Shown piece after piece: positions 26,401 to 42,265 of a stretch of 64,000 bases of DNA. The notes beneath the pieces were generated by a model. The model made no database searches, was not told the DNA's origin, and worked only from the letters and a program-made list of their open reading frames with translations. Source of the DNA: Cryptosporangium aurantiacum (lineage in GTDB: Bacteria > Actinomycetota > Actinomycetes > Mycobacteriales > Cryptosporangiaceae); contig NZ_FRCS01000009.1 of the NCBI RefSeq assembly GCF_900143005.1, positions 62,001 to 126,000 of the forward strand. Reading direction: 5' to 3'. A program made the translations under genes and the position numbers. Positions within the stretch are counted from its first letter, which is position 1; every line of letters begins with the position of its first letter.

Positions 26401-27363
26401 TCAGAGATCCAGCACGAGTTTCGGGCAGGCGGCGCGGGACACGCAGATGAACATCGTGTCGTTCGCGGCGCGTTCCTCCGCCGTGAGCAGGCTGTCGCGG
26501 TGGTCGACCGCGCCGTCGAGCACCGGCGTCTCGCAGGTGCCGCACGTGCCCTCGCGGCAGGAGAACAGCACGAACACCCCGGCCGCGTCGGCGACGTCCA
26601 GGATCGACTGATCCGGTGGCACGGTGAGCGTCTTGCCGCTCTGCGCCAGCTCCACCTCGAACGACTCGTGCCGCACCGGCTCGCCCTGCTCCTTCGGGGC
26701 GAACCGCTCGACGTGCAGCGTCCCGGACGGCCACGACGCACACCGCTCCTCGACGGCCCGCAGCAGCGGTTCGGGCCCGCAGCAGTAGACGAGCGTGTCC
26801 GCGCGCGGCGGCCCGAGGATCGCGTCCAGATCGAGCAGGCCGTGTTCGTCCTGCGGACGGAAGACGACCCGCGGCCCGTGGGCCGCGGTCAGCTCCGCGC
26901 GGAAGGCCATCGACGCGGAGGTGCGCCCGCCGTAGTGCAGTTCCCACTCCGCTCCGGACGCCGTCGCGGCCGCCATCATCGGCAGGAGCGGCGTGATCCC
27001 GATGCCGCCCGCGATGAACACGTACCGCGCGGCGGGCTCCAGCGCGAAGTGGTTGCGCGGCCCGCGGACGTCGACGACGTCACCTTCGGCGAGCTTGTCG
27101 TGGACGTACTGGGAGCCGCCGCGCCCCTCGGTCTCGCGGAGCACGGCGACGCGCCAGGTCGAACGGTCGGCGGGGTCGCCGCAGAGCGAGTACTGCCGCA
27201 CCAGGTCGGGGCCGAGGGCCACGTCGACGTGCGCGCCGGGTGACCAGACCGGGAGCGCGGCGCCGCTCGGGTCCTGCAGGTCGAGCGCCACCACACCGTC
27301 GGCGACGGCGGAACGGCGGACGATCCGGAGGCGAAGGTCGACCTCGTCGTGGGTGCTGTGCAC
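26401..27363 (-). CDS. Phthalate-dioxygenase-reductase/VanB-type oxidoreductase
   Basis: 320 residues in the order flavin domain, NAD domain, 2Fe-2S ferredoxin. RQYSL (about 56-60) binds the flavin, GGIGITP (about 118-124) the nucleotide, and CREGTCGTCE with a later Cys the plant-type 2Fe-2S cluster. It passes electrons from NADH to a terminal oxygenase, most likely the Rieske protein at 27719-28786 in the same operon. GTG 27363 has GGAGAGG upstream. It is closely similar to the reductase at 35882-36859, so the two are paralogues. Confidence 0.93.
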   Translation of the reverse strand: MHSTHDEVDLRLRIVRRSAVADGVVALDLQDPSGAALPVWSPGAHVDVALGPDLVRQYSLCGDPADRSTWRVAVLRETEGRGGSQYVHDKLAEGDVVDVRGPRNHFALEPAARYVFIAGGIGITPLLPMMAAATASGAEWELHYGGRTSASMAFRAELTAAHGPRVVFRPQDEHGLLDLDAILGPPRADTLVYCCGPEPLLRAVEERCASWPSGTLHVERFAPKEQGEPVRHESFEVELAQSGKTLTVPPDQSILDVADAAGVFVLFSCREGTCGTCETPVLDGAVDHRDSLLTAEERAANDTMFICVSRAACPKLVLDL

Positions 27364-27443: not shown

Positions 27444-27722
27444 TCACACCGGGACGACGTCCCGGCGCCGGGAGGGTGGAGCCGGCGGGACCACCAGCGC
27501 ACCACCGGCGGGGTGATCGGGGTGGGCGAGCAGCCATTCCCAGAGCGTCACCGGGTCCTCGGCGTCGCTCTCCGCACCGCAGTGGCAGCGGCCGTGCAGC
27601 CGGTCCGACCCGGGCACCCAATCCACGTGCAACACCCGCTTCCCAGCGCCCGGGCGAGCGCCCGCGCCCGGGCGAGCGCCCGCGCCCGGGCCCGGGCTCG
27701 GCCCCGCGTCCGGGGGCGTCAT
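27444..27722 (-). CDS. 92-residue CxC protein coupled to the Rieske oxygenase
   Basis: A small protein whose ATG overlaps the stop of the Rieske oxygenase (ATGA). It starts with a low-complexity Pro-Gly-Ala-Arg stretch (residues 7-27, GARPGA repeats), followed by a conserved-looking core, VLHVDWVPGSDRLHGRCHCG and a Trp-rich helix with EDPVTLWEWLLAHPDH. The C-x-C could bind metal or take part in redox. No family recognised. Its place between oxygenase and reductase suggests an accessory role in the oxygenase system. The reading frame continues upstream only as a shadow. Confidence 0.7.
   Translation of the reverse strand: MTPPDAGPSPGPGAGARPGAGARPGAGKRVLHVDWVPGSDRLHGRCHCGAESDAEDPVTLWEWLLAHPDHPAGGALVVPPAPPSRRRDVVPV
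27646..27690. repeat. 18-bp GC tandem repeat inside the small coupled gene
   Basis: Unit GCGCCCGGGCGAGCGCCC occurs at 27646-27663 and 27664-27681, followed by a partial copy. It encodes the GARPGA repeats of the 92-residue protein and is likely to vary in copy number between strains. Confidence 0.8.
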
Positions 27723-28786
27723 CGGGTCGCGGGCGTCGGAAGACCGGCTGCCGACCCCGCCGCGGCGAGTTTCGCCATCATCCGCCGCGCCGCCAGACCG
27801 CCGGTGTCGATGTTGATCGACAGCTCCTGGTACCCGTCGGCCTCGTCGGCGATGACCCGCTCCAGAACGTCGAGCGCCGTGACGTCCTGCAGCACGACCG
27901 TGCGGTTGTTCTCGGCGAGGAAGTCCGACACGCCCTGGTCGTCCAGCGCGAAGTCCCGCGCCACCGCCCAGAAGTCGTGCGTCGAGTGCTCGGTCTCCGG
28001 CGTGATCGCGTAGACGACCTCGACGTGGAACGCGTCCGGGTCGGTGCCGTCGGCGTTCGGCAGCACGCCGACCGGAGCGATCCGCGAGTGCAGCGTGTAG
28101 AGGCAGGGCGGCAGGTACTCGATGTCCTGCCACCGCGTGATCCGCCCGGTGATCCCGGTGGACTTCGCGTAGAACGGCGGGCACGCGGCGTCGGCCATGT
28201 GCCGCGACACCGAGATGATCCCGGCGTCCTCGTCGACCTCGGTCGTGATCGGCGTCTCCGCGACCTCGGGCGTCCCGATGTACCCGCCGTGCAGATACGT
28301 CTCGTGGGAGAGGTCGAGCAGGTTGTCGATGAGCAGGCTCGCCCTGGCCGCGAGCGGCTCCATGCCGGACACGGTGGTCCAGCCCTCCTGGGCGAGCCAC
28401 GGCGCCCGGGGGATCCGCGCCGAGGGAGCGAGCGCGGGGTCCCCGATGAACACCCAGACGAACGAGTCCTGCTCCACGACCGGGTACGACCGCAGCCGCG
28501 CGGTCCGCGGCACCCGGGTCTGGCCCGGCACGGCCACGCACACCCCGTCCGCGCCGTACGTGAAGCCGTGATACCCGCAGACGACCGTGTCGCCGACCAG
28601 GTGGCTCGGCTTCTCCGAGAGGGGGAAGCGGCGGTGTACGCACCGATCCGACATCGCGGTCACCGCACCGGCTTCGGTCCGCCAGAACAGGATCGACTCG
28701 CCACAGATCGTCCGCGAGAACAGGTCCCGCCCGATCTCCCGGCCATAGGCGGCCACGTACCACTGATTACGCACGATCGACGTCAT
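27719..28786 (-). CDS. Rieske non-heme iron oxygenase, vanillate O-demethylase (VanA) type
   Basis: 355 residues. The Rieske 2Fe-2S site is Cys49, His51, Cys70 and His73. The mononuclear iron site includes Asp158, His161 and His166 in DNLLDLSHETYLH. The N-terminus NQWYVAAYGREIG is typical of the VanA-type oxygenases that remove methyl groups from methoxyaromatics or hydroxylate related rings. It has no small beta subunit, as expected for this class. Electrons should come from the PDR-type reductase two genes downstream. ATG 28786 was chosen. The exact substrate is not predictable. Confidence 0.92.
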   Translation of the reverse strand: MTSIVRNQWYVAAYGREIGRDLFSRTICGESILFWRTEAGAVTAMSDRCVHRRFPLSEKPSHLVGDTVVCGYHGFTYGADGVCVAVPGQTRVPRTARLRSYPVVEQDSFVWVFIGDPALAPSARIPRAPWLAQEGWTTVSGMEPLAARASLLIDNLLDLSHETYLHGGYIGTPEVAETPITTEVDEDAGIISVSRHMADAACPPFYAKSTGITGRITRWQDIEYLPPCLYTLHSRIAPVGVLPNADGTDPDAFHVEVVYAITPETEHSTHDFWAVARDFALDDQGVSDFLAENNRTVVLQDVTALDVLERVIADEADGYQELSINIDTGGLAARRMMAKLAAAGSAAGLPTPATR

Positions 28787-30801: not shown

Positions 30802-31263
30802 TCAGCGGGGGCCGTACGTGCGGAAGATCGGCTCCGCGATGCACACCGGCTTGGGGGCGCCCTCGGCCTCGATCACGGCCGCGATCGTGAGCTGGTAACC
30901 CCCGGCGACCTCCTCGACGTCCTTCAGCGTCGCGGTGAGGCGGATCTTCGAGCCCACCGGCACCGGCGCCGGGAACCGCACCTTGTTCAGGCCGTAGTTC
31001 ACGCCCATCGTCGCGTCGGTCACGGTCAGGACCTGCGACCACATCGGGATCAGCAGCGACAGCGTCAGGTAGCCGTGGCCGATCGGGCCGCCGAACGGGC
31101 TCTCCGCCGCGGCCCGCTCCGGGTCCACGTGGATCCACTGGTGGTCGTCGGTGGCGTCGGCGAACAGGTTCACCCGCTGCTGGGTGACCTCGAACCAGTC
31201 GCTGACCCCGAGCTGGGTGCCCTTCAGGCCGGGCAGCTCGGCGACCGTCGTCGTAGTCGTCAT
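30802..31263 (-). CDS. MaoC-like (R)-specific enoyl-CoA hydratase
   Basis: 153 residues, single hot-dog domain. The catalytic signature FADATDDHQWIHVDPERA (about 35-52) gives the hydratase Asp and His, and a following GGPIGHGYLTLSL is standard. It adds water across 2-enoyl-CoA. It is the last gene of a four-gene operon with a CoA ligase, an amidohydrolase and an SDR; its ATG overlaps the ligase stop (ATGA). With the SDR it could form a hydratase/dehydrogenase pair for beta-oxidation of an unusual acid. Confidence 0.9.
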   Translation of the reverse strand: MTTTTTVAELPGLKGTQLGVSDWFEVTQQRVNLFADATDDHQWIHVDPERAAAESPFGGPIGHGYLTLSLLIPMWSQVLTVTDATMGVNYGLNKVRFPAPVPVGSKIRLTATLKDVEEVAGGYQLTIAAVIEAEGAPKPVCIAEPIFRTYGPR

Positions 31264-32780
31264 ACGGAAACATCCTTCCGGAGGTCGGGCTTACGGATCT
31301 TGCCGGTGGCGGTCTTGGGCAGCGCGTCCACGAACCGGATTCGGCGGGGCACCTTGAACCCGGCGAGCCGGGCCCGGAGCGCGGCCCGCACCGTGTCCTC
31401 GTCGGCCGCCGAGCCCGGGGCGACGACGACGAACGCGACGCCCACCTCGCCCCACCGCTCGTCGGGCACACCGATCACGGCTGCCTCCTCGACGTCCGGC
31501 AGGTCACGGAGCGCGGACTCGACCTCGGCCGGGTACACGTTCTCGCCGCCGGAAATGTACATGTCCTTGTACCGGTCGCGGATGTAGAGGAAGCCGTCGG
31601 AGTCCACGCTGCCCGCGTCGCCGGAGTGGTACCAGCCGTCGACGAGGACCTCGGCGGTGCGGTCCGGCTCGTTCCAGTAGCCGGCCATGATGTTCGGGCC
31701 CTGGAGCACGACCTCGCCGATCTCACCCGGCGCGGCCTCGGTTCCGTCCGGCCGCACCACGCGGACGTCGGTGAAGAACTGCGGACGCCCGGCGGAGCCG
31801 ACCTTCGCCACCGCGTCGCCCGCGTCGAGGACGGTGCCGGCCGGTGCCGACTCGGTCATGCCGTACGCCTGCTGCACGGTGATGCCCCGGTCGAGCCAGG
31901 TGCGCAGCGTCTCGGCCGGAAGCGGCGCACCGGCGGCGGCCACGGTCCGCAGCGTCGAGAGATCGCGTGCGCGGAAGCCCGGTTCGCGGCTCAGCGCGTC
32001 GAGCATCGTCGGGACGCCGAAGAAGCTGTTGATCCGCTGCTCCTCGATCAGCGCGAGCAGGCCCGCCGCGTCGAACGACCGAACGATCACCGCGCACCCG
32101 CCACGCAGCAGCGTCGGGTTCACGGTGCCGTTGAGCCCGCCGATGTGGAACAGCGGCGCCACCGCGAGCGTCCGCTCGTCCTGGGCGAAGTCGAAGCCGA
32201 GGATCTGGCTCATGCACGCCCACGTCATGTTGCCGTGGGTGAGCACCGCGCCCTTCGGGCGTCCGGTGGTGCCGGACGTGTACATGATCAGGCACGGGTC
32301 CTCGAGCGTGACCCGCGCGTCGCGGGGCTCGGGGTCGGTGAGTAACTCCTCGTACGGCAGCGAGCCCTCGCCTCCGGCGAGCGGTGGTTCCGCGGTTACC
32401 CACGTACGGACCGAGGTCGTGGACCGGAGCTCGTCGGCGACGGTCCCGTGATCCCGGCCGTGGACGACGACCGACGCGCCGGAATGTCCGATGACGTACG
32501 CCGCCTCGGACGCCGTGAACCGGGCGTTGACCGGCACCCACACCGCCCCGAGCTGCCCGCAGGCGTACAGCGTCTCCAGCGCGGCGGGGTGGTTGAGTCC
32601 CAGCCACGCGACCCGGTCGCCCGGGCGGACGCCGAGGCCGGCGAGCGCACCGGCGACCCGCCGCACCCGGTCGGAGAACTCCCGGTGCGACGTCGTGACG
32701 CCCTCGAACCAGAGCGCGTCCCGGTCGGGGGAGATGCGGCGGCGGCGCTCCGGCCAGGAGCCGAGCCCGGCGTTACGCAC
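31260..32780 (-). CDS. Acyl-CoA ligase (AMP-forming)
   Basis: 506 residues of the ANL superfamily. The ATP loop YTSGTTGRPKGA is at about 167-178, the adenylate site YGMTE later, then YHSGDAG and the C-terminal catalytic Lys in LPKTATGKIRK. It activates a carboxylic acid, aromatic or aliphatic, to its CoA thioester. GTG 32780 overlaps the amidohydrolase stop by 8 bases, and the stop overlaps the MaoC start. It probably commits the substrate of this operon to CoA-bound degradation. Confidence 0.93.
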   Translation of the reverse strand: MRNAGLGSWPERRRRISPDRDALWFEGVTTSHREFSDRVRRVAGALAGLGVRPGDRVAWLGLNHPAALETLYACGQLGAVWVPVNARFTASEAAYVIGHSGASVVVHGRDHGTVADELRSTTSVRTWVTAEPPLAGGEGSLPYEELLTDPEPRDARVTLEDPCLIMYTSGTTGRPKGAVLTHGNMTWACMSQILGFDFAQDERTLAVAPLFHIGGLNGTVNPTLLRGGCAVIVRSFDAAGLLALIEEQRINSFFGVPTMLDALSREPGFRARDLSTLRTVAAAGAPLPAETLRTWLDRGITVQQAYGMTESAPAGTVLDAGDAVAKVGSAGRPQFFTDVRVVRPDGTEAAPGEIGEVVLQGPNIMAGYWNEPDRTAEVLVDGWYHSGDAGSVDSDGFLYIRDRYKDMYISGGENVYPAEVESALRDLPDVEEAAVIGVPDERWGEVGVAFVVVAPGSAADEDTVRAALRARLAGFKVPRRIRFVDALPKTATGKIRKPDLRKDVSV

Positions 32781-33642
32781 GGCCCAGGCCCAGAGCGCGA
32801 ACCGCGTTCTCCTTCATGATCAGCGGCCGGACGTCGTCGGCGATCTCGAGTTTTTCGAAGTCGCGGATCCACCGCTCGGGCCGCAGCAGCGGATAGTCGG
32901 AACCGAACAGGACCTGGCGCTTGAGCTGGCGGTTCGCGGCGTGCACCAGCTGCGGCGGGAAGTACTTCGGCGACCAGCCGGACAGGTCGATGTAGACGTT
33001 CGCCTTGTGGGTGGCGATCGAGATCGCCGCGTCCTGCCAGGGCACCGACGGGTGGGCCATGATGATCGTCAGCCCGGGGAAGTCCGCGGCGACGTCGTCG
33101 ATCAGCATCGGGTCGGAGTAGCGCAGCTTGATGCCGCGGCCGCCGGGCAGGCCCGCGCCGATCCCGGTCTGGCCGGTGTGGAAGAGGGCCGGGACCTGCA
33201 GGGCCTCCAGCTCCTCGTACAGCGGGTACGCGCGCGGGTCGTTGGGCGCGAAACCCTGGAAGCTCGGGTGGAACTTGAAGCCGCGGACGCCGTGCTCTTC
33301 GACGAGGCGGCGGGCGGCCCTGACGCCGGCCTTCCCGCGCGCCGGGTCGATCGAGCCGAACGGGATGAGGACGTCGGGGTGCTGCGCGGCCAGGCCGGCG
33401 ATCTCCTCGTTGGACAGCGCGGGCTGGCCGGTCGCGGCTTCGGCGTCGACGGTGAAGATCACCGCGGCCATGCGGAGCTTGCGGTAGTCGTCGGCGATCT
33501 CGGGGACCGTCGGGTCGTACGGGTCGCCCTTGAAGTACTTGGCCGCGGCGGTGCTCAGCTCGTCGTCCAGCGCGAGGTGCCCGTGCTGGTCGGCGTGCAC
33601 GTGCACGTGGACGTCGATCGCGACGAGGTCGTCGATGTTCAT
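32773..33642 (-). CDS. Amidohydrolase-2 family hydrolase or decarboxylase
   Basis: 289 residues, TIM barrel. First-strand metal ligands are in AIDVHVHVHADQHG (about 8-21), then KFHPSFQGF, LFHTGQTG, IMAHPSVPW and GSDYPLL with the final Asp. The family includes decarboxylases such as ACMSD and gamma-resorcylate decarboxylase as well as lactonases. Substrate unknown. It lies between the SDR (ATGA overlap) and the CoA ligase, so it acts in the same pathway. ATG 33642 was chosen. Confidence 0.88.
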   Translation of the reverse strand: MNIDDLVAIDVHVHVHADQHGHLALDDELSTAAAKYFKGDPYDPTVPEIADDYRKLRMAAVIFTVDAEAATGQPALSNEEIAGLAAQHPDVLIPFGSIDPARGKAGVRAARRLVEEHGVRGFKFHPSFQGFAPNDPRAYPLYEELEALQVPALFHTGQTGIGAGLPGGRGIKLRYSDPMLIDDVAADFPGLTIIMAHPSVPWQDAAISIATHKANVYIDLSGWSPKYFPPQLVHAANRQLKRQVLFGSDYPLLRPERWIRDFEKLEIADDVRPLIMKENAVRALGLGRA

Positions 33643-34547
33643 CGGGGCGGCTCCGGCAGCTGCTGGCCCACGGTCTGCGCCGACGGAGCGAACGTGTCGG
33701 CCCAGACGTCGGCGATCGCGTCGGCCGACCAGCCGGTCCCGTCGGCGAACTCGACGACGATCTCGGACGGGTGGCTCCAGAGCGCGAGCCGGTCACCGCC
33801 GATGCCGACCGCCTGACCGGTGATGCCCGCGGCGGCGTCGGAGGCGAGGAACGCGACCAGCCCGGCGGCGTCCTCCGGCGTGCCGAAGCCCAGCTCCTGG
33901 CGGGCGAACGCGGGCAGCGGCTCACCGGCCCGCAGCGCGTCGATGTACGGCTTGAGGAACGGCACGGTCTCGGTCATCGCGGTCGCGGCGACCGGCACCA
34001 CGGCGTTGACCGTGATCTGCGCCCTGGCCAGCTCCATCGCCCAGGTGCGGACCATGCCGACGATGCCGGCCTTGGCCGCGGCGTAGTTCGTCTGCCCGAA
34101 GTTGCCGACCTGGCCGGTGGGGGAGCCGATGCAGATGATCCGGCCACCCTCGCCCTGCTCGCGAAGTTTGATCGAGGCGGCACGGGTGGCGGTGAACGTT
34201 CCGCGCAGGTGGGTGGTGATCACCGCGTCGAACTGCTCGTCGGTCATCTTCCACAGCGTGGTGTCGCGCAGAATGCCGGCGTTGTTGACCAGGATGTCCA
34301 GGCGGCCGTACTCGGCGACGGCCCGGTCCACGAGCGCCTGGGCGGCCTCGCTGGTGCCGACCGGCACGACCTCGGCCACGGCCCGACCGCCGGCCTCGGT
34401 GATCGTGTCGACGGCGGCCTTCGCCACCGCCTCGTCCACGTCGTTGACGACCACCGCCGCGCCGTGCGTGGCCAGCCGCTGGGCGTAGGCCAGACCCAGA
34501 CCACGCCCGCTGCCGGTGACGATCGCTACCTTGCCTGTCAGGTCCAT
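33639..34547 (-). CDS. SDR with C-terminal extension, MFE-2-type hydroxyacyl dehydrogenase
   Basis: 302 residues. The SDR core has TGSGRGLG (about 11-18), VVVNDVD, NNAG and YAAAK. The order VVVND and the extra 50 residues after the core resemble the (3R)-hydroxyacyl-CoA dehydrogenase domain of multifunctional enzyme type 2. The frame is open 25 codons upstream, but ATG 34547 begins the domain. It is the first gene of the operon ending in MaoC and lies opposite the MarR gene, with 94 bases between. Confidence 0.88.
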   Translation of the reverse strand: MDLTGKVAIVTGSGRGLGLAYAQRLATHGAAVVVNDVDEAVAKAAVDTITEAGGRAVAEVVPVGTSEAAQALVDRAVAEYGRLDILVNNAGILRDTTLWKMTDEQFDAVITTHLRGTFTATRAASIKLREQGEGGRIICIGSPTGQVGNFGQTNYAAAKAGIVGMVRTWAMELARAQITVNAVVPVAATAMTETVPFLKPYIDALRAGEPLPAFARQELGFGTPEDAAGLVAFLASDAAAGITGQAVGIGGDRLALWSHPSEIVVEFADGTGWSADAIADVWADTFAPSAQTVGQQLPEPPR

Positions 34548-34641
34548 GTCGCTGCCTCTTCGCACCTGATGGGGGATGTGTACTCCGGGGACGACGGTAA
34601 GGTTAACCGTTGAGAGTGTCAATTAATGAGGAGATCATCTA

Positions 34642-35082
34642 ATGCCGTTCGTCGACAACATCGGCTTTCTGATGTCCCGGGCGAGCGGTCAGCTGGTGCG
34701 CGCCACGAACGCCGCGCTGGCCGACGAGGGGCTCCGGGTGCGGCAGTACTCGGTGCTGGCCCTGGTCTGCGAGTCCGCGCAGGGCGAATCGCAGCGTGAC
34801 CTCGCCGAAGTGCTGGGGCTCGACCCGAGCCAGGTCGTCGCGCTCGTCGACGACCTGGACCGGGCCGGGCTGGTCGAACGTCGTCCGTCACCGGCCGACC
34901 GGCGGACGAAGCTCGTCGTGCCGACCGACCGGGGCCGGGCCGTCCGCGAGCGGGCCGCCGAGCGCGCCGACGCCCGGCTCACCGACGCGCTCGGCGCGCT
35001 GACCGCGGCCGAGCAGGAGACGCTGCGCGCGCTGCTGGCCCGGGTGGTGGACCTGGACGTCACCCCTCGGGTATCTCCCTAA
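34642..35082 (+). CDS. MarR-family transcriptional regulator
   Basis: 146 residues. Winged helix-turn-helix about 40-105, with SQRDLAEVLGLDPSQVVALV as recognition region and RRPSPADRRTK as the wing. It likely senses an aromatic or acyl-CoA ligand and controls the divergent SDR operon; the gap contains the palindrome GGTTAACC at 34601-34608. A GAGGAG ribosome site lies 8 bases before ATG 34642. An IclR gene follows 1 base after its stop. Confidence 0.9.
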   Translation: MPFVDNIGFLMSRASGQLVRATNAALADEGLRVRQYSVLALVCESAQGESQRDLAEVLGLDPSQVVALVDDLDRAGLVERRPSPADRRTKLVVPTDRGRAVRERAAERADARLTDALGALTAAEQETLRALLARVVDLDVTPRVSP

Positions 35083-35083
35083 C

Positions 35084-35842
35084 GTGGCGCGTTCCCCGTC
35101 CGGTGACTCGATGGTCGACCGGGTGGTCCGGGTGCTGGAGGCGTTCGACCCGGACACCCCGGTCCTGACCGTCTCCGCTCTCGCGGCGCGCGCCGGGCTA
35201 CCGCTGTCCACCACGTCCCGGCTGGTCGACCAGCTCGTCGGCCACGGCCTGCTGGGACGCGACAGCGCGCGCCGGGTGCGGATCGGCGTACGGATGTGGG
35301 AGCTGGCGTCCCGCGCGTCGCCAACGCTCGGCCTGCGCAGTGCCGCGATGCCGTTCCTGGAGGACCTGCACGCGGTCGTCGGGCACCACGTCCAGCTCGG
35401 CGTGCTGGAGCAGCGCGAGGTCCTGTTCGTCGAGCGGCTGTCGGCGCCGGGCGCGGTCATCAACCTCACCCAGATCGCCGGGAGGCTGCCGCTGCACGCG
35501 TCGTCGGGCGGGCTGATCCTGCTCGCGCACGCCCCATCCGATCTGCAGGAGGCGGTGCTCGCCGGCCCGCTCCGCGGGTACACCGACCGGACGATCACCG
35601 ACGCCAGGACGCTGCGCCGCACGCTGGCGCAGGTGCGCACGCAGGGGTTCGTGCACTGTCCCGGCCACATCCACCCGGACGCGGCCGGGGTCGCGGTGCC
35701 GGTGCGCGACCGGTCCGACGCGGTCGTGGCCGCGCTGGCGGTCGTAGTGCCGAACGACGACCGGGCGCTGGGCACGGTGCCGCTGCTGCGGGCGATGGCC
35801 CGGGGCATCCAGGCGTCCATCGGACCCATTGAATGGAACTGA
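35084..35842 (+). CDS. IclR-family transcriptional regulator
   Basis: 252 residues. The N-terminal winged helix (about 8-70, with LPLSTTSRLVDQL) is followed by the IclR effector-binding GAF-like domain (about 80-250). IclR proteins commonly control aromatic-acid catabolism. It is followed 39 bases later by the reductase and P450 genes, the likely targets. GTG 35084 is just after the MarR stop and lacks a ribosome site; ATG 35111 is an alternative start. Confidence 0.9.
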   Translation: MARSPSGDSMVDRVVRVLEAFDPDTPVLTVSALAARAGLPLSTTSRLVDQLVGHGLLGRDSARRVRIGVRMWELASRASPTLGLRSAAMPFLEDLHAVVGHHVQLGVLEQREVLFVERLSAPGAVINLTQIAGRLPLHASSGGLILLAHAPSDLQEAVLAGPLRGYTDRTITDARTLRRTLAQVRTQGFVHCPGHIHPDAAGVAVPVRDRSDAVVAALAVVVPNDDRALGTVPLLRAMARGIQASIGPIEWN

Positions 35843-35881: not shown

Positions 35882-36859
35882 ATGCCCGCTGCTGCGCATG
35901 CTCTTCTTCCGTCCTCCACCGGACTGTCGGCCCTGCGCGTCGCCGCCAAGACTCCGCTGGCCGACGGGGTCTGCGGATTGACGCTCGTCGCCCCGGACGG
36001 TGGCCGGCTCCCGGATTGGACGCCCGGCGCCCACCTCGACGTTCTCTTGCCCGGTGACGTCACAAGGCAGTACTCGCTGTGTGGAGATCGCTGGAACCCG
36101 ACGTCGTACCGGGTCGCGGTCTTACGCGAGCTCGCCGGGCGGGGTGGCTCCGCGTACGTCCACGACACGCTGTCGATCGGCGACCTGGTGGGCGTCGGCG
36201 GGCCGCGGAACAACTTCCCGCTGGTCCCGGCCGCGCACTACGTGTTCGTGGCCGGCGGGATCGGGATCACGCCGATCCTGCCGATGATCCAGCACGCCGA
36301 GCTGCTCGGGACGCCGTGGACGCTGCTCTACGGCGGCCGCACCCGCTCGTCGATGGCGTTCCTGCCGGAGCTGGCCGCGTACGGCGACCGGGTGCGGATC
36401 CGGCCGCAGGACGAGTACGGGCTGCTGGACCTCGCGTCGACGCTGGAGTCGATGCCCGCGGGCGCGAAGGTGTACTGCTGCGGGCCCGGCCCGCTGCTGG
36501 ACGCGATCGAAGCGTCGTGTTCGACGCTGGCGCCGGGCACGCTGCGGACCGAGCGGTTCGTGCCGAAGGAGCAGGGCCCGCCGGTGCGCAGCACGCCGTT
36601 CGCGGTCGAGCTGGAGCGCAGCGGCGTGACGGTGACCGTCGCCCCCGGCACCAGCGTGCTGGAGGCGATGGCCGCCGCCGGGGTGCCCGTGCTCTCGTCC
36701 TGCCGCCAGGGCACCTGCGGGACCTGCGAGACGGCGGTGCTCGACGGCGTGCCCGACCACCGCGACTCGCTGCTCACCGACGCCGAACGCGCGGCCGGTC
36801 GCAGCATGTTCGTCTGCGTGTCCCGCTCCTGCGGCGACCGCCTCGTCCTCGACGCCTGA
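35882..36859 (+). CDS. PDR/VanB-type reductase partner of a P450
   Basis: 325 residues with flavin site RQYSL, nucleotide site GGIGITP and C-terminal 2Fe-2S CRQGTCGTCE plus Cys. The same three-part plan as the reductase at 26401-27363, with long identical stretches such as VYCCGP and SRDSLLT-like endings. The P450 gene follows 9 bases later, so this NADH reductase probably feeds it directly, replacing the usual separate ferredoxin and ferredoxin reductase. ATG 35882 lacks a good ribosome site; the exact start is uncertain by a few codons. Confidence 0.92.
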   Translation: MPAAAHALLPSSTGLSALRVAAKTPLADGVCGLTLVAPDGGRLPDWTPGAHLDVLLPGDVTRQYSLCGDRWNPTSYRVAVLRELAGRGGSAYVHDTLSIGDLVGVGGPRNNFPLVPAAHYVFVAGGIGITPILPMIQHAELLGTPWTLLYGGRTRSSMAFLPELAAYGDRVRIRPQDEYGLLDLASTLESMPAGAKVYCCGPGPLLDAIEASCSTLAPGTLRTERFVPKEQGPPVRSTPFAVELERSGVTVTVAPGTSVLEAMAAAGVPVLSSCRQGTCGTCETAVLDGVPDHRDSLLTDAERAAGRSMFVCVSRSCGDRLVLDA

Positions 36860-36868
36860 GGGGTTTTC

Positions 36869-38059
36869 ATGACGCTCGCACTGACCTCCATGGACGCCGA
36901 TCCGTTCGGCCCGGAGATCCTCGAAGACCCGCTGCCGTTCCAGGCCGCGCTGCGCGACGCCGGCCCGGTCGTCCACCTGTCCACGTACGACGTCTACGGG
37001 CTCGGCCGCTACGCCGAAGTGCACGCCGCCCTCACCGACTGGCAGAACTTCCAGTCCGCGGCCGGCGTCGGGCTCTCGAACTTCCGCGTCGAGAAGCCGT
37101 GGCGTCCGCCGAGCCTGCTGCTGGAAGCGGATCCGCCGCACCACGACGCGCCCCGCCACGTCCTCGAACCGATCCTCACACCGCGCGCGCTCCGCGCGCT
37201 CCGGCCGCGCTGGCTGGCCTCCGCCGAACAGCTGGTCGACGAGGTGCTCGGCGCGGGTGACATCGACCTGGTCACCGCGGTCGCGCAGGCGTTCCCGCTC
37301 CGCGTCTTCCCGGACGCCGTCGGCCTGCCGGACGCCGGGCGGGAGAACCTGCTGCCCTACGGTGACCACGCGTTCAACGCGTTCGGACCGTCCAACGAGC
37401 TGGTCGCCAAGGGCCTGCCGCGGATCGGCGAACTGTCCGCCTGGGTCAACGCCCAGTGCGCCCGCGAGGTGCTGGCCCCGGACGGGTTCGGCGCCCAGAT
37501 CTGGGCCGCCGCCGACCGCGGCGACATCACCCCTGAACAAGCGCCGCTGATCGTCCGCTCGCTGCTCACCGCCGGGGTCGACACGACCGTGCACGGGCTG
37601 GGCGCCGCGCTCTACGCGTTCGCGACCCACCCCGACCAGTGGGACCGGTTCCGCGCCGCCCCGACCCTGGCGCGGGTCGCGTTCGACGAGGCCGTGCGGC
37701 TCGAATCGCCGGTGCAGACGTTCTTCCGCACCGCGACCAGGGACATGCGGATCGGCGACACGGTCGTCCCGGAGGGCCACAAGATCCTGATGTTCCTCGG
37801 CGCGGCCAACCGCGACCCGCGGCGCTGGGCCGACCCCGACCGGTTCGACCTCGGACGGGACCCGTCCGCGCACGTCGGCTTCGGGATGGGCATCCACCAG
37901 TGCGTCGGCCAGCACGTGGCGCGGCTGGAGGCCGAGGCCGTGCTGACCGCGCTCGCCGCCCGGGTGTCCCGGATCGAGCTGACCGGCCCACCCGTGCGCC
38001 ACCACAACAACACGCTGCGCGCGTTCGCCGCGCTGCCGGCCCGCCTGATCACCGGCTGA
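36869..38059 (+). CDS. Cytochrome P450, CYP199-like (para-substituted benzoate type)
   Basis: 396 residues. The heme loop GFGMGIHQCVG has Cys345, and the I-helix has AGVDTT with Asp238-Thr239. The B-C region WRPPSLLLEADPP places Arg79 and Ser82 with the same three-residue spacing as Arg92 and Ser95, which hold the substrate carboxylate in CYP199A4 (from memory). That enzyme demethylates 4-methoxybenzoate; a similar aromatic acid is therefore the best guess here. It is soluble and cytoplasmic, coupled to the PDR-type reductase before it. Its end overlaps the facing HAD gene by 11 bases. Confidence 0.9.
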   Translation: MTLALTSMDADPFGPEILEDPLPFQAALRDAGPVVHLSTYDVYGLGRYAEVHAALTDWQNFQSAAGVGLSNFRVEKPWRPPSLLLEADPPHHDAPRHVLEPILTPRALRALRPRWLASAEQLVDEVLGAGDIDLVTAVAQAFPLRVFPDAVGLPDAGRENLLPYGDHAFNAFGPSNELVAKGLPRIGELSAWVNAQCAREVLAPDGFGAQIWAAADRGDITPEQAPLIVRSLLTAGVDTTVHGLGAALYAFATHPDQWDRFRAAPTLARVAFDEAVRLESPVQTFFRTATRDMRIGDTVVPEGHKILMFLGAANRDPRRWADPDRFDLGRDPSAHVGFGMGIHQCVGQHVARLEAEAVLTALAARVSRIELTGPPVRHHNNTLRAFAALPARLITG

Positions 38060-38702
38060 GCAGATCCGGGAGGTCCGCGACGCTGCCGACGACGTGCGTC
38101 GGGTGCTCGGCGTCCAGCTCCTCGCGGGTCTGCGCACCGGAGAGCACACCGACGACGAGGCCCGCACCGGCGGCGTGCCCGGCGCGGATGTCGAGCACGG
38201 TGTCACCGGCGGCGAGCACCTGTGCCGGATCGTCCACACCGGTGCGGCGCATCGCCTCCCGGATCAGGTGCGGCTCCGGACGACCGGCCGCCACCTCGGA
38301 CGCGCAGACCACGGCGTCCAGCTGATCACCGACCCGCCAGCCGAGCGCGGCGAGCAGCGGGTCGGTGACCTGGCGGTCGAAGCCGGTGGTCAGCGCGGCC
38401 CGGACACCCGTGGCGCGCAGTGCCGCCAGCGCCTCCGGAACACCCGGGATCGGACGCGGCGGCGCCGCGGCATAGGCCTCCCGCAGCCGTTCCACGAACC
38501 GCGCGTGCAGCGTCTCGGTGGCCGCCCGGTCACCGGTGAGCGCCGCCAGCGCCTCGCGCTTGTCCGCGCCCATCCAGCGGCGGATGTCAGCGTCGGCGGC
38601 CGGGGTTCCGTGCTCCGCGACGACCTCGGCGAGGACCCGGTAGACCGCACCACCCTCGTCGACGGTGGTCCCGGCGATGTCGAGCGCGACGAGTCGGATC
38701 AC
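38049..38702 (-). CDS. Phosphonatase-like HAD hydrolase (PhnX-like)
   Basis: 217 residues. The HAD nucleophile motif is DIAGTTVDEGG with Asp8; AGTT is shared with phosphonoacetaldehyde hydrolase. In the cap, WMGADKREAL puts Lys48 about 40 residues after the nucleophile, close to the Schiff-base Lys spacing of true PhnX (Asp12 to Lys53). It could cleave the C-P bond of a phosphonoaldehyde. Such phosphonatase-like proteins (TIGR03351 as recalled) occur with the FAD oxidoreductase found upstream here. GTG 38702 overlaps the PhnE stop as GTGA. Last gene of the operon. Confidence 0.85.
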   Translation of the reverse strand: MIRLVALDIAGTTVDEGGAVYRVLAEVVAEHGTPAADADIRRWMGADKREALAALTGDRAATETLHARFVERLREAYAAAPPRPIPGVPEALAALRATGVRAALTTGFDRQVTDPLLAALGWRVGDQLDAVVCASEVAAGRPEPHLIREAMRRTGVDDPAQVLAAGDTVLDIRAGHAAGAGLVVGVLSGAQTREELDAEHPTHVVGSVADLPDLLSR

Positions 38703-39532
38703 GGTGTGCTCCCCAGATGGCGACGGACGTACGCGGACAGCTGGTCGACGGCCACGATGAGGACGAGCACCACCAGGATGTGGGTCAGCATCTGGTCGAA
38801 CTGGAACAGCTGGATGGATTGGTTGATCAGGAAGCCGATGCCGCCGGCGCCGACCAGTCCGAGGACCAGCGACGAGCGGACGTTGACGTCGAACCGGTAG
38901 AGCAGCAGGCCGACGAGCTGCGGCGTGACAGTCGGCAGCAACGCGTGTGCCGCCACCTGGATGCGCCCCGCACCGGCCGATCGGAGCGCCTGGGAGGGAC
39001 CGGGGTCGGCGTCCTCGAGCGACTCGGCCCACAGCTTGCCCATCACGCCGACGTTGTGGCACACGAGCGCGAGGACGCCGGGGAACGGGCCGAGGCCGAC
39101 CGCGGTCACGAAGATCAGCGCGAACACGACGTCGGGCACCGCGCGCAGGAACGACAGCAGCGCGCGAGCCGCCTGGTAGGCCCAGGCCGTCGGTGCGGTG
39201 TTGCGGGCGGCCAGCAGCGCGAACACGAGCGTCGCCGGAATCGACAACGTCGTGCCGAGCAGCCCGATCCAGAGCGTCACCAGGGCAGCGGAGGCGCTGT
39301 CGCGCAGCACGTCGGCCGAGAAGTCCGGCGGGATCGCCTCGGCGAGGAAGTCCGCCATCCCACGCCAGCCCTCGACCAGCGCGGCTGCCGAGATCTCGGT
39401 GGTGTCCCACGCGACGACGTGCGCGGCCACGACGACCGCGGCGATCGCCCAGCCGACGATCAGCGCCCGGGGACGCCGCGGTTTCGGCGGCACCGCGAGG
39501 CGGCGCGCGGTCAGGGGTCCGGTTCCGGTCAT
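38699..39532 (-). CDS. phnE: Phosphonate ABC transporter permease PhnE
   Basis: 277 residues and about six membrane helices. The permease signature around HNVGVMGKLWAESLEDAD contacts the ATPase, and RSSLVLGLVGAGGIGFLI is typical of PhnE/PtxC proteins. It forms the membrane channel for phosphonate (or phosphite) import. ATG 39532 overlaps the PhnC stop (ATGA), and the stop overlaps the HAD start. Substrate is inferred from the cluster rather than from residues. Confidence 0.92.
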   Translation of the reverse strand: MTGTGPLTARRLAVPPKPRRPRALIVGWAIAAVVVAAHVVAWDTTEISAAALVEGWRGMADFLAEAIPPDFSADVLRDSASAALVTLWIGLLGTTLSIPATLVFALLAARNTAPTAWAYQAARALLSFLRAVPDVVFALIFVTAVGLGPFPGVLALVCHNVGVMGKLWAESLEDADPGPSQALRSAGAGRIQVAAHALLPTVTPQLVGLLLYRFDVNVRSSLVLGLVGAGGIGFLINQSIQLFQFDQMLTHILVVLVLIVAVDQLSAYVRRHLGSTP

Positions 39533-40230
39533 GGGGCGGGTTCCAAGGCCGAGACGTACAGCGACTCGACCGGCTGCGACGGGTCGCCGTCCAGCACGAC
39601 CCGGCCGTCCCGCAGGCCGACGATCCGGTCGGCGTGCCTGCGGGCGAGGTCGGGCTGGTGCAGGACCGCGAGCACGGCCAGCTGCTCGTCGTGCGCCAGC
39701 TCGGCGAGCAGCGCGAGAACCTGCTCGGCGGCGGCCGGGTCCAGCGCCGACACCGGCTCGTCGGCGAGCAGCACCGGGGCGCGCTGGCAGAGCGCCCGGG
39801 CAACCGCGACCCGCTGCTGCTGGCCGCCGGACAGGCTGCCCGCGCGGTCGTGCGCCCGGTCGGCGAGCCCGACGCGGTCCAGGCAGGCCATCGCCTCCTC
39901 GCGGACGACCCGCGGGAACACCAGCGACCGGTGCAGCGGCAGCCGTCCCAACGCGCCGGCGCAGACGTTCTCCAGCGCGCTGCGCCGCCGCACCAGGTGG
40001 ATCTGCTGGAACACCAGAGCGATGTCCAGCGGGCCGCGCCGCCGTCCGTCGACGGTCACCGTGCCCCCGGCGGCCGGGGTGAGCCCGGCCGCCGCCCGCA
40101 ACAGCGTGGACTTGCCCGAGCCGTTCGCGCCGAGCACCGCGAGCAGCTCACCGGCGGACACCGTCACGTCGACCCCGTGCAGTACGGCCCGGGAGCCGTA
40201 CTGCACGCGGACGCCGCGGAGGGCGAGCAT
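39529..40230 (-). CDS. phnC: Phosphonate ABC transporter ATP-binding protein PhnC
   Basis: 233 residues. Walker A GANGSGKST (about 34-42), Q-loop VFQQ, signature LSGGQQQR, Walker B VLLADEP, and the switch His in AVLHQ. It powers phosphonate uptake with PhnE and PhnD. ATG 40230 overlaps the PhnD stop by one base (TGATG). In the operon FAD oxidoreductase, phnD, phnC, phnE, HAD. Confidence 0.93.
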   Translation of the reverse strand: MLALRGVRVQYGSRAVLHGVDVTVSAGELLAVLGANGSGKSTLLRAAAGLTPAAGGTVTVDGRRRGPLDIALVFQQIHLVRRRSALENVCAGALGRLPLHRSLVFPRVVREEAMACLDRVGLADRAHDRAGSLSGGQQQRVAVARALCQRAPVLLADEPVSALDPAAAEQVLALLAELAHDEQLAVLAVLHQPDLARRHADRIVGLRDGRVVLDGDPSQPVESLYVSALEPAP

Positions 40231-41138
40231 CAGACGTCCTTCTCAGTGAGCTTCAGTGCGGTGGCGAGGTCGAAGAGCGGCTGGTACGTGGCCTTGTCCA
40301 CCGCGACGAGCTTGCCGGGCGGGTCGACGTCCAGCAGCGCGGCGAGCTTCGCGACGGCGTCCGGGTCGAGGTCGAGCAGCGCGTCCTCGACGGCCTTCTT
40401 GAACTCCGGGTCGAGGTCACCGCGGACCGTGATCGGGTCGTTCGGGATCGGCTCCGACGTCCAGATCTTGCGGAACTTCGAGGCGTCGAACGTGCCGGAG
40501 CTCGTCGCGCTGGCCTCCTGCTGCGAGTTGATCTCCGCGGCGTCGACCGAGCCGTTCACCAGCGCCAGCAGCGCCTCCGGGTGCCCACCGGCGTACTTCA
40601 GCTTGACGTCCTTCTGTGCGATGCCGGCGTCGATCAGCGCCTTGCGCGGCAGCGCGTCGCCCGAGGTCGAGCCGACCGACGACAGCGCGAGCGTCTTGTC
40701 CTTCAGCTGCTCGATGCCGGTGAGCGGCGAGTCCTTCGCCACCCAGATCGCGGCGGTGTAGCTGGACAGCTTCCCGGTCGCGTCGCCGAACGACGCGACG
40801 GCCTCGGCGTTCGCCCGCTGGCTGGCGAACACGTAACCGAGCGGGCCGAAGATCGCGAGGTCGAGTTTGCCGTTCTCCATGGCCAGTACTTCGGCCGAGT
40901 AGTCCTCGGTGATCCGCACGGTCACCGGGCAGTCGAGCTTCTTCTCCAGCGCGTCACCGAGGATCTCGGCGGCCGGGGTGAGCTTGGCCGGGTCCTCGAA
41001 CGGCTCGACGCCGAAGCGGATCTCACCGCCGGGGCAGGTGGGCGACGCGGACGCCGAGTCGGCGTCACCGCCGCAGGCAGCGAGCGTCAGAGCCAGGCAG
41101 GCGGTGGCCGCCAGCGCGAGGGAACGACGGACGAACAC
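40230..41138 (-). CDS. phnD: Phosphonate-binding lipoprotein PhnD
   Basis: 302 residues. A lipoprotein signal ends in LTLAAC, so the mature protein would be lipid-anchored outside the membrane. The rest is a PhnD/PtxB-type binding protein: IRFGVEPFEDPAKLTP at its start, then NGKLDLAIFGPLGYV and a segment with SVGSTSGDALPRKAL, which line the ligand pocket in relatives. It captures phosphonates for PhnCE. GTG 41138 was chosen because AAGGAGA lies 8-10 bases upstream and the signal peptide starts there; upstream open frame is shadow. Confidence 0.92.
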   Translation of the reverse strand: MFVRRSLALAATACLALTLAACGGDADSASASPTCPGGEIRFGVEPFEDPAKLTPAAEILGDALEKKLDCPVTVRITEDYSAEVLAMENGKLDLAIFGPLGYVFASQRANAEAVASFGDATGKLSSYTAAIWVAKDSPLTGIEQLKDKTLALSSVGSTSGDALPRKALIDAGIAQKDVKLKYAGGHPEALLALVNGSVDAAEINSQQEASATSSGTFDASKFRKIWTSEPIPNDPITVRGDLDPEFKKAVEDALLDLDPDAVAKLAALLDVDPPGKLVAVDKATYQPLFDLATALKLTEKDV

Positions 41139-41161
41139 GGGGGGTCTCCTTGGGGAGGGGC

Positions 41162-42265
41162 TCAGAGCGAGTCGAGGACGGTGGGGGCGAGCCCGAAGGC
41201 GGTGGTCATGCCGATCCCGGACGTCACCGAGACCGCGGTGACGCCGGAACCGACCGGCGCGCGGAGGAACTCGCCGTCCGCGCTGGCGTACGTGCCCTGC
41301 CAGCGGCGGACGACGGTGAGGTCGGAGCGGCCCAGCAGCGCCCGGGTCTCGGCCAGCAACAGCTCGTCGAGCTGCTCGGACGACCAGGGCTCGGGCGTGC
41401 GGGCGTAGGCGTGGGTGTCCCCGACGACGAGGTCGCCGTCCGGGAGCTGGGTGAGCATGTGGTTGACGACCGCGTCCAGCAGGTCCGGCCGTTCGGCGCG
41501 CCACCGCTCGCGGAGCGCGCGGGCGCCGTCGGTGCCGGCCAGCGCCGGGTAGCGGAGCATCGAGCTTCCGGTGAGCACGGCCGGGTCGATCCGCAGACCG
41601 GGCACGCGCAGCTGGAGCATCTGCAGCCGGCACCGCTGCAGAGCGGCGTCCTCGGCGACCGCGGGCAGCAGCCGGTCGAGGTCGTGGCCGACACAGACCA
41701 CGATTCGCCGGGCGCGCAGTTCGCCGCGACCGGTGCGGACCAGGCCCGGTTCGACGCCGAGCACCGGCGTGCCCCAGCGGATCCGGACCCCGGGCTGCGC
41801 GCTCAGCCAGGCCGCGATCGCGCCTGCGGCGCGGCGCTGTTCGATCCGCAGGTCCCGGGGGAGCAGTGCACCGCCGTGCAGGTTCTCCACCTCCACGGGG
41901 ACGCGGTGCGCGACCTGCTCGGGGGTCAGCAGCCGGACCTCGTCGTGGCCGCGGAGCGCGGCGAGTTCGTCCAGCGCGGCCATCTCCTCGGCGGCCCGTG
42001 CCACGACGACCGTGCCGCACTCGGCGACCCCGAACCCGGCCGCGAGGCCCAGCCGGAGCCAGGTGCCGCGGGCCCGATCGGCGTAGGCGAGCGCCTCGCC
42101 GGTCTGCGCGGTGATGCACGCGTGGCCGAAGTTGCGCACCGAGGCCCCGACCGCGCGCTCGTCGCGGTCCACGACGGTCACGGTGAGGCCGCGGTTGACT
42201 GCGTCGACGGCGTGGGCGAGCCCGACGATGCCGGCGCCGACGACGACGAGATCCGAGGTGGTCAC
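41162..42265 (-). CDS. Phosphonate-associated FAD-dependent oxidoreductase (DAO family)
   Basis: 367 residues. The FAD-binding motif VVGAGIVGLAHA starts at about residue 8, and the C-terminal DAO-type end has GMTTAFGLAP. The close family, TIGR03364 as recalled (HpnW proposed), is found beside phosphonate transporters and phosphonatase-like hydrolases. Related phosphonate-cluster FAD enzymes oxidise aminophosphonates to phosphonoaldehydes; that reaction would feed the HAD enzyme. First gene of the operon, 23 bases before phnD. GTG 42265 is the start; a 16-bp dyad lies 39 bases upstream. Confidence 0.85.
   Translation of the reverse strand: MTTSDLVVVGAGIVGLAHAVDAVNRGLTVTVVDRDERAVGASVRNFGHACITAQTGEALAYADRARGTWLRLGLAAGFGVAECGTVVVARAAEEMAALDELAALRGHDEVRLLTPEQVAHRVPVEVENLHGGALLPRDLRIEQRRAAGAIAAWLSAQPGVRIRWGTPVLGVEPGLVRTGRGELRARRIVVCVGHDLDRLLPAVAEDAALQRCRLQMLQLRVPGLRIDPAVLTGSSMLRYPALAGTDGARALRERWRAERPDLLDAVVNHMLTQLPDGDLVVGDTHAYARTPEPWSSEQLDELLLAETRALLGRSDLTVVRRWQGTYASADGEFLRAPVGSGVTAVSVTSGIGMTTAFGLAPTVLDSL

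Follow-up and report, generated by a model that had tools for sequence, protein, structure and literature searches.

A CYP199A-type cytochrome P450 and a one-piece PDR-type reductase as a probable two-component O-demethylase behind a CouR-like regulator in Cryptosporangium aurantiacum

The cytochrome P450s CYP199A4 and CYP199A2 of Rhodopseudomonas work with a separate [2Fe-2S] ferredoxin and an FAD reductase. PbdA of Rhodococcus jostii RHA1 works with the reductase PbdB alone, which carries flavin and Fe-S, and the two purified proteins use NADH to demethylate p-methoxybenzoate (kcat/KM 20,000 per M per s), veratrate, and isovanillate; PbdA holds the substrate carboxylate via Arg84, Ser87, and Ser237, and its Ala174 was suggested by the authors as the reason for good veratrate turnover (PMC11530827). 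The same source also cites a further “two-component system” from Amycolatopsis magusensis. The guaiacol demethylase GcoA/GcoB likewise consists of a P450 and one three-domain reductase (PMC6021390). RHA1 additionally carries the Cou genes, which comprise a CoA ligase, an SDR, the amidohydrolase CouO, and the MarR-family regulator CouR, the latter binding the inverted repeat cATTGA-N5-TCAATg between couN and couR (PMC4737184).

The window analysed here, i.e., the whole stretch of 64,000 nucleotides from Cryptosporangium aurantiacum (contig NZ_FRCS01000009.1, positions 62,001 to 126,000), contains a CYP199A gene adjoined by a PDR gene in an operon without a ferredoxin gene (Table 1). The reductase gene terminates with TGA at 36859 and the P450 gene opens with ATG at 36869, leaving the 9-nt spacer GGGGTTTTC; the ORF coordinates thereby confirm the initial annotation, which had placed a one-piece reductase gene 9 bases before the P450 gene. 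Judged by sequence, the pair is very probably a PbdAB-type two-component O-demethylase with a CYP199A P450, which would almost certainly demethylate plant-derived p-methoxybenzoic acids. Such an enzyme system is known in kind, as PbdAB is characterised in Rhodococcus and widespread in actinobacteria, and the only point specific to this locus is its placement directly behind a couR-like gene.

Table 1. Coordinates of the gene pair and of associated features in the window
Feature	Coordinates	Strand	Remarks
Second PDR-type reductase (PDR2)	26401..27363	-	Presumed Rieske partner; 60% identical to the window PDR, other group
VanA-type Rieske oxygenase	27719..28786	-	VanA_C and Rieske domains; not the partner of the window PDR
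MaoC hydratase	30802..31263	-	Neighbouring pathway
Acyl-CoA ligase, CouL-like	31260..32780	-	Neighbouring pathway
Amidohydrolase, CouO-like	32773..33642	-	Neighbouring pathway
SDR, CouN-like dehydrogenase	33639..34550	-	Neighbouring pathway
CouR-box-like operator GTTGA-GAGTG-TCAAT	34609..34623	.	Between SDR and MarR genes; 1 mismatch to ATTGA-N5-TCAAT
MarR-family regulator, CouR-like	34642..35082	+	Best PDB matches 5cyv/3fm5 (CouR of RHA1)
IclR-family regulator, PcaR/PobR-like	35084..35842	+	Accompanies the pair in most relatives; start separated by 1 nt from the MarR stop
PDR/VanB-type NADH reductase, PbdB-like	35882..36859	+	325 aa; flavin-NAD-[2Fe-2S]; groups with CYP199-adjacent PDRs, 91/98
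CYP199A-type cytochrome P450, PbdA-like	36869..38059	+	396 aa; best PDB match 9g9q (PbdA), E 8.7e-196

In a PDB search with the P450, the best solved relatives were PbdA (654 bits) and then CYP199A4 (489 bits), and all families after these scored below 190 bits. A maximum-likelihood tree, which also took in seven further P450s encoded in this genome, joined the P450 with PbdA, CYP199A4, and actinobacterial homologues in one clade (100/100); the seven other P450s fell outside this CYP199 clade, and the nearest named row was that of Kineosporia rhizophila at about 80% identity. Because of this joint clade, a position of the P450 outside CYP199 can be dismissed, and the original CYP199-like assignment stands. 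All catalytic motifs were present, i.e., the heme motif FGMGIHQCVG, ExxR, and the acid-alcohol pair D238-T239. Arg79 and Ser82, which had been read initially as the preserved carboxylate pair of CYP199A4, do align with Arg92/Ser95 of CYP199A4 and Arg84/Ser87 of PbdA, and Ser231 aligns with Ser237 of PbdA, the third carboxylate ligand, such that the Arg-Ser-Ser site of the Rhodopseudomonas enzymes is kept as well. The pocket residues R79, S82, S231, R230, A235, F169, F172, V282, and F285 are identical to those of PbdA (the Phe numbers 173 and 176 of PMC11530827 do not fit the PbdA numbering that fits Arg84 and Ser237, in which the Phe residues are 175 and 178). About a quarter of all P450 residues differ between the two proteins. 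At the veratrate position, A168 corresponds to Ala174 of PbdA, where CYP199A4 has Val. Across 86 sequences, Arg79 and Ser231 were invariant and Ser82 differed once. Position 168 varied (A in 54, L in 25, V in 6, and T in 1), and the exact substrate range can therefore not be read off.

The reductase matched the Pfam domains NAD_binding_1 and Fer2 (the latter at residues 243-315 of 325) and carries the motifs RQYS (62), GGIGITP (125), and C274-x4-C279-x2-C282-x29-C312. The domain order flavin-NAD-[2Fe-2S] with a plant-type C-x4-C-x2-C-x29-C cluster is that of PDR, in agreement with the one-piece PDR-type reductase proposed at the outset. By sequence, the reductase domains of self-sufficient CYP116B enzymes (6kbh, 6laa) were closest, followed by 7ylr and phthalate dioxygenase reductase 2pia (E 5.4e-56). 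In the reductase tree, the window PDR grouped with PDRs preceding CYP199 genes at a node short of 100 (Table 1), and these CYP199-linked PDRs formed a group of their own, apart from both the CYP116B domains and the Rieske-linked PDR2; identity to the CYP199-linked PDRs of other taxa was moderate (about 60-75%). The idea of a split form of P450RhF is thus a loose one: the reductase part of CYP116B/P450RhF proteins (6kbh, 6laa, and the fusion L097 of the same genome) is homologous and alike in domain order, but theirs is fused to a CYP116 P450, whereas here two ORFs encode a CYP199 P450 and a reductase of a different tree group. GcoA/GcoB differs in that GcoA is a CYP255A enzyme and the ferredoxin domain of GcoB is N-terminal, before FAD/NAD (FNR/BenC-like), whereas Fer2 is C-terminal here. 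The same genome also encodes a one-piece P450-PDR fusion of CYP116B layout (745-aa open frame, G000:C2:159462-161606). A candidate natural PDR-P450 fusion in a metagenome-assembled genome of Actinomycetospora (L046:6999-9191) was rejected, as its joined frame results from a frameshift shortly before the PDR gene ends, and close relatives have a normal stop.

The frequency of the arrangement was determined on 80 loci, i.e., the best matches of a genome collection picked by similarity to the window P450. In 79 of them, a PDR gene on the same strand immediately preceded the P450 gene (the 80th P450 starts at a contig end), and the adjacency of the two genes is not due to chance because it recurs in this way. 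The median gap between PDR and P450 genes was about 26 nt (82 pairs measured), an IclR gene was found in the flanks of 71/80 loci, and the PDR was also present in all four actinobacterial plasmid loci read. In the type strain R. jostii NBRC 16295, the P450 (94% identical to PbdA) follows in the order IclR-PDR-P450; of the more than 20 PDR homologues in this genome, the one most similar to the window PDR shares a contig with the PbdA orthologue and has 67% identity, the same as the P450-adjacent copy. From this strain and the cofactor statement of PMC11530827, we infer that PbdB of RHA1 is of the PDR type. CYP199 with a one-piece reductase, initially regarded as unusual, is hence the norm among close actinobacterial relatives, with PbdAB already purified, and the set speaks for these relatives rather than for all CYP199. 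On a Paracoccus plasmid (L013), the CYP199 gene was followed by genes for a ferredoxin and an FAD reductase. The separate ferredoxin and reductase belong to the alphaproteobacterial CYP199 branch, and the common generalisation from the Rhodopseudomonas arrangement is to be corrected accordingly; for users of actinobacterial CYP199 enzymes, the redox partner to clone is the one-piece PDR.

From the sequences, clades, conserved residues, gene adjacency, and downstream genes present, we infer the following reaction. NADH would reduce the flavin of the PDR-type protein, and electrons would pass via the reductase’s own C-terminal [2Fe-2S] domain directly to the heme of the P450, without a separate ferredoxin as intermediary. 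The P450 would hold the substrate carboxylate by Arg79, Ser82, and Ser231 and hydroxylate p-methoxybenzoate, and probably veratrate as well, at the para-methoxy group. The hydroxylated product would then fall apart into formaldehyde and 4-hydroxybenzoate (or vanillate in the case of veratrate), which PobA or the VanA-type Rieske system could convert to protocatechuate for ring cleavage. A para-substituted benzoate, as proposed initially, is supported as the likely substrate by the CYP199 clade and the kept carboxylate residues.

VanA-type oxygenases are usually partnered by PDR/VanB proteins, and with a Rieske oxygenase about 7 kb from the pair, the window PDR might really serve that enzyme and stand before the P450 only incidentally. 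This was rejected as barely credible, since the oxygenase has its own adjacent PDR in another tree group, and since the PDR precedes the P450 in 79 of the 80 loci, with homologues of the window’s Rieske protein in none of the 80 flanks. It is unlikely, if less so, that the window PDR is shared and feeds the P450 plus other oxygenases of the cell. PDR-type domains do support foreign P450s in engineered fusions, and a Pseudonocardia plasmid operon (L011) has a Rieske oxygenase and a P450 with a single PDR; that PDR, however, falls in the Rieske-linked group, and several other PDR homologues are encoded elsewhere in the C. aurantiacum genome. Very improbable, too, is a P450 with a changed substrate (another para-substituted benzoate or a cinnamate) that would put the pair in a pathway other than p-methoxybenzoate demethylation. 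The location of the pair, which immediately follows a CouR-like regulator and a Cou-like p-hydroxycinnamate operon, would be in line with this, as would the several para-substituted benzoates taken by CYP199 enzymes (PMC11530827), but all PbdA pocket residues checked are kept. Moreover, benzoates arising from methoxycinnamates via a Cou-type pathway would themselves be PbdAB substrates, so the placement behind the Cou locus requires no change of substrate.

For the steps after demethylation by the PbdAB-like pair, a PobA-like gene was detected on another contig of the genome (491 bits, below the curated cut-off of 538.7), as was PcaH (protocatechuate 3,4-dioxygenase; 361 bits, over its cut-off) with a second, PcaG-like match beside it. 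Locus and genome together would plausibly provide a route from (methoxy)cinnamates to protocatechuate. With this locus, a well-supported pair of the PbdAB type joins the enzymes under consideration for lignin-derived methoxybenzoates.

The SDR-amidohydrolase-ligase-MaoC operon is divergent to the CouR-like MarR gene, which directly precedes IclR-PDR-P450. CoA ligase, SDR, amidohydrolase, MarR regulator, and an inverted-repeat operator in the divergent gap are shared with the Cou genes of RHA1 (orthology of the Cou enzymes being judged by family and layout); in contrast to both the Cou and the PbdAB loci of RHA1, the couR-like gene and its operator are here followed immediately by the pbd-type operon. 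The CouR-box-like site was the best in the window for ATTGA-N5-TCAAT. At two mismatches, four sites were found in the window versus 1.67 expected, which is not rare by count, and the weight of the match stems from the best site falling in the SDR-MarR gap rather than from the number of matches. A similar site occupied the corresponding position in three congeners. A sigma-70-like match before the couR-like gene was too near the start codon to convince. The Cou-like cluster was present in all three congeners searched and the P450 pair in only one of them (G003), there on another contig; compared with these congeners, the present genome is therefore the only one with the pair directly behind the couR-like gene. 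In a few other genomes (L017, L048, and L053), pbd-type and cou-type genes are linked in different arrangements. With respect to GC content, the operon showed no contrast that would indicate recent arrival (0.73-0.74 at 35-38 kb amid 0.65-0.77).

Given the spacing of the MarR and IclR genes, the couR-like gene and the P450 operon could share a transcript. More tentatively, p-hydroxycinnamoyl-CoA, acting via CouR and the predicted operator, might jointly induce the removal of the side chain and the para-demethylation within a single regulon, a possibility we consider rather doubtful. If true, the enzyme itself would still be a known one, and only its regulation would have been rewired.

On a Rhodococcus pyridinivorans plasmid (L012:4975-7188), the P450 of a PDR-P450 pair of this kind has Ala at the position of the carboxylate residue Ser82, Thr at that of Leu85, and Val at that of Phe285. 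The pair immediately follows the gene of a 662-aa Baeyer-Villiger monooxygenase, which has a long N-terminal extension, and lies near esterase-like hydrolases. Substitutions at the carboxylate residues of PbdA raise the affinity for p-methoxyacetophenone (PMC11530827), and the L012 pair may be a p-methoxyacetophenone demethylase. On the Pseudonocardia plasmid (L011:3659-7191), one operon encodes a Rieske oxygenase (77% to the window’s Rieske protein), a small ORF, one VanB-like PDR, and a CYP199-like P450, and the single reductase may serve both oxygenases. In the window itself, the P450 gene is followed by a convergent operon (38052-42265) of a HAD phosphatase, an ABC permease, an ATPase, a phosphonate-binding protein, and an FAD-dependent oxidoreductase, likely a cluster for phosphonate uptake and breakdown.
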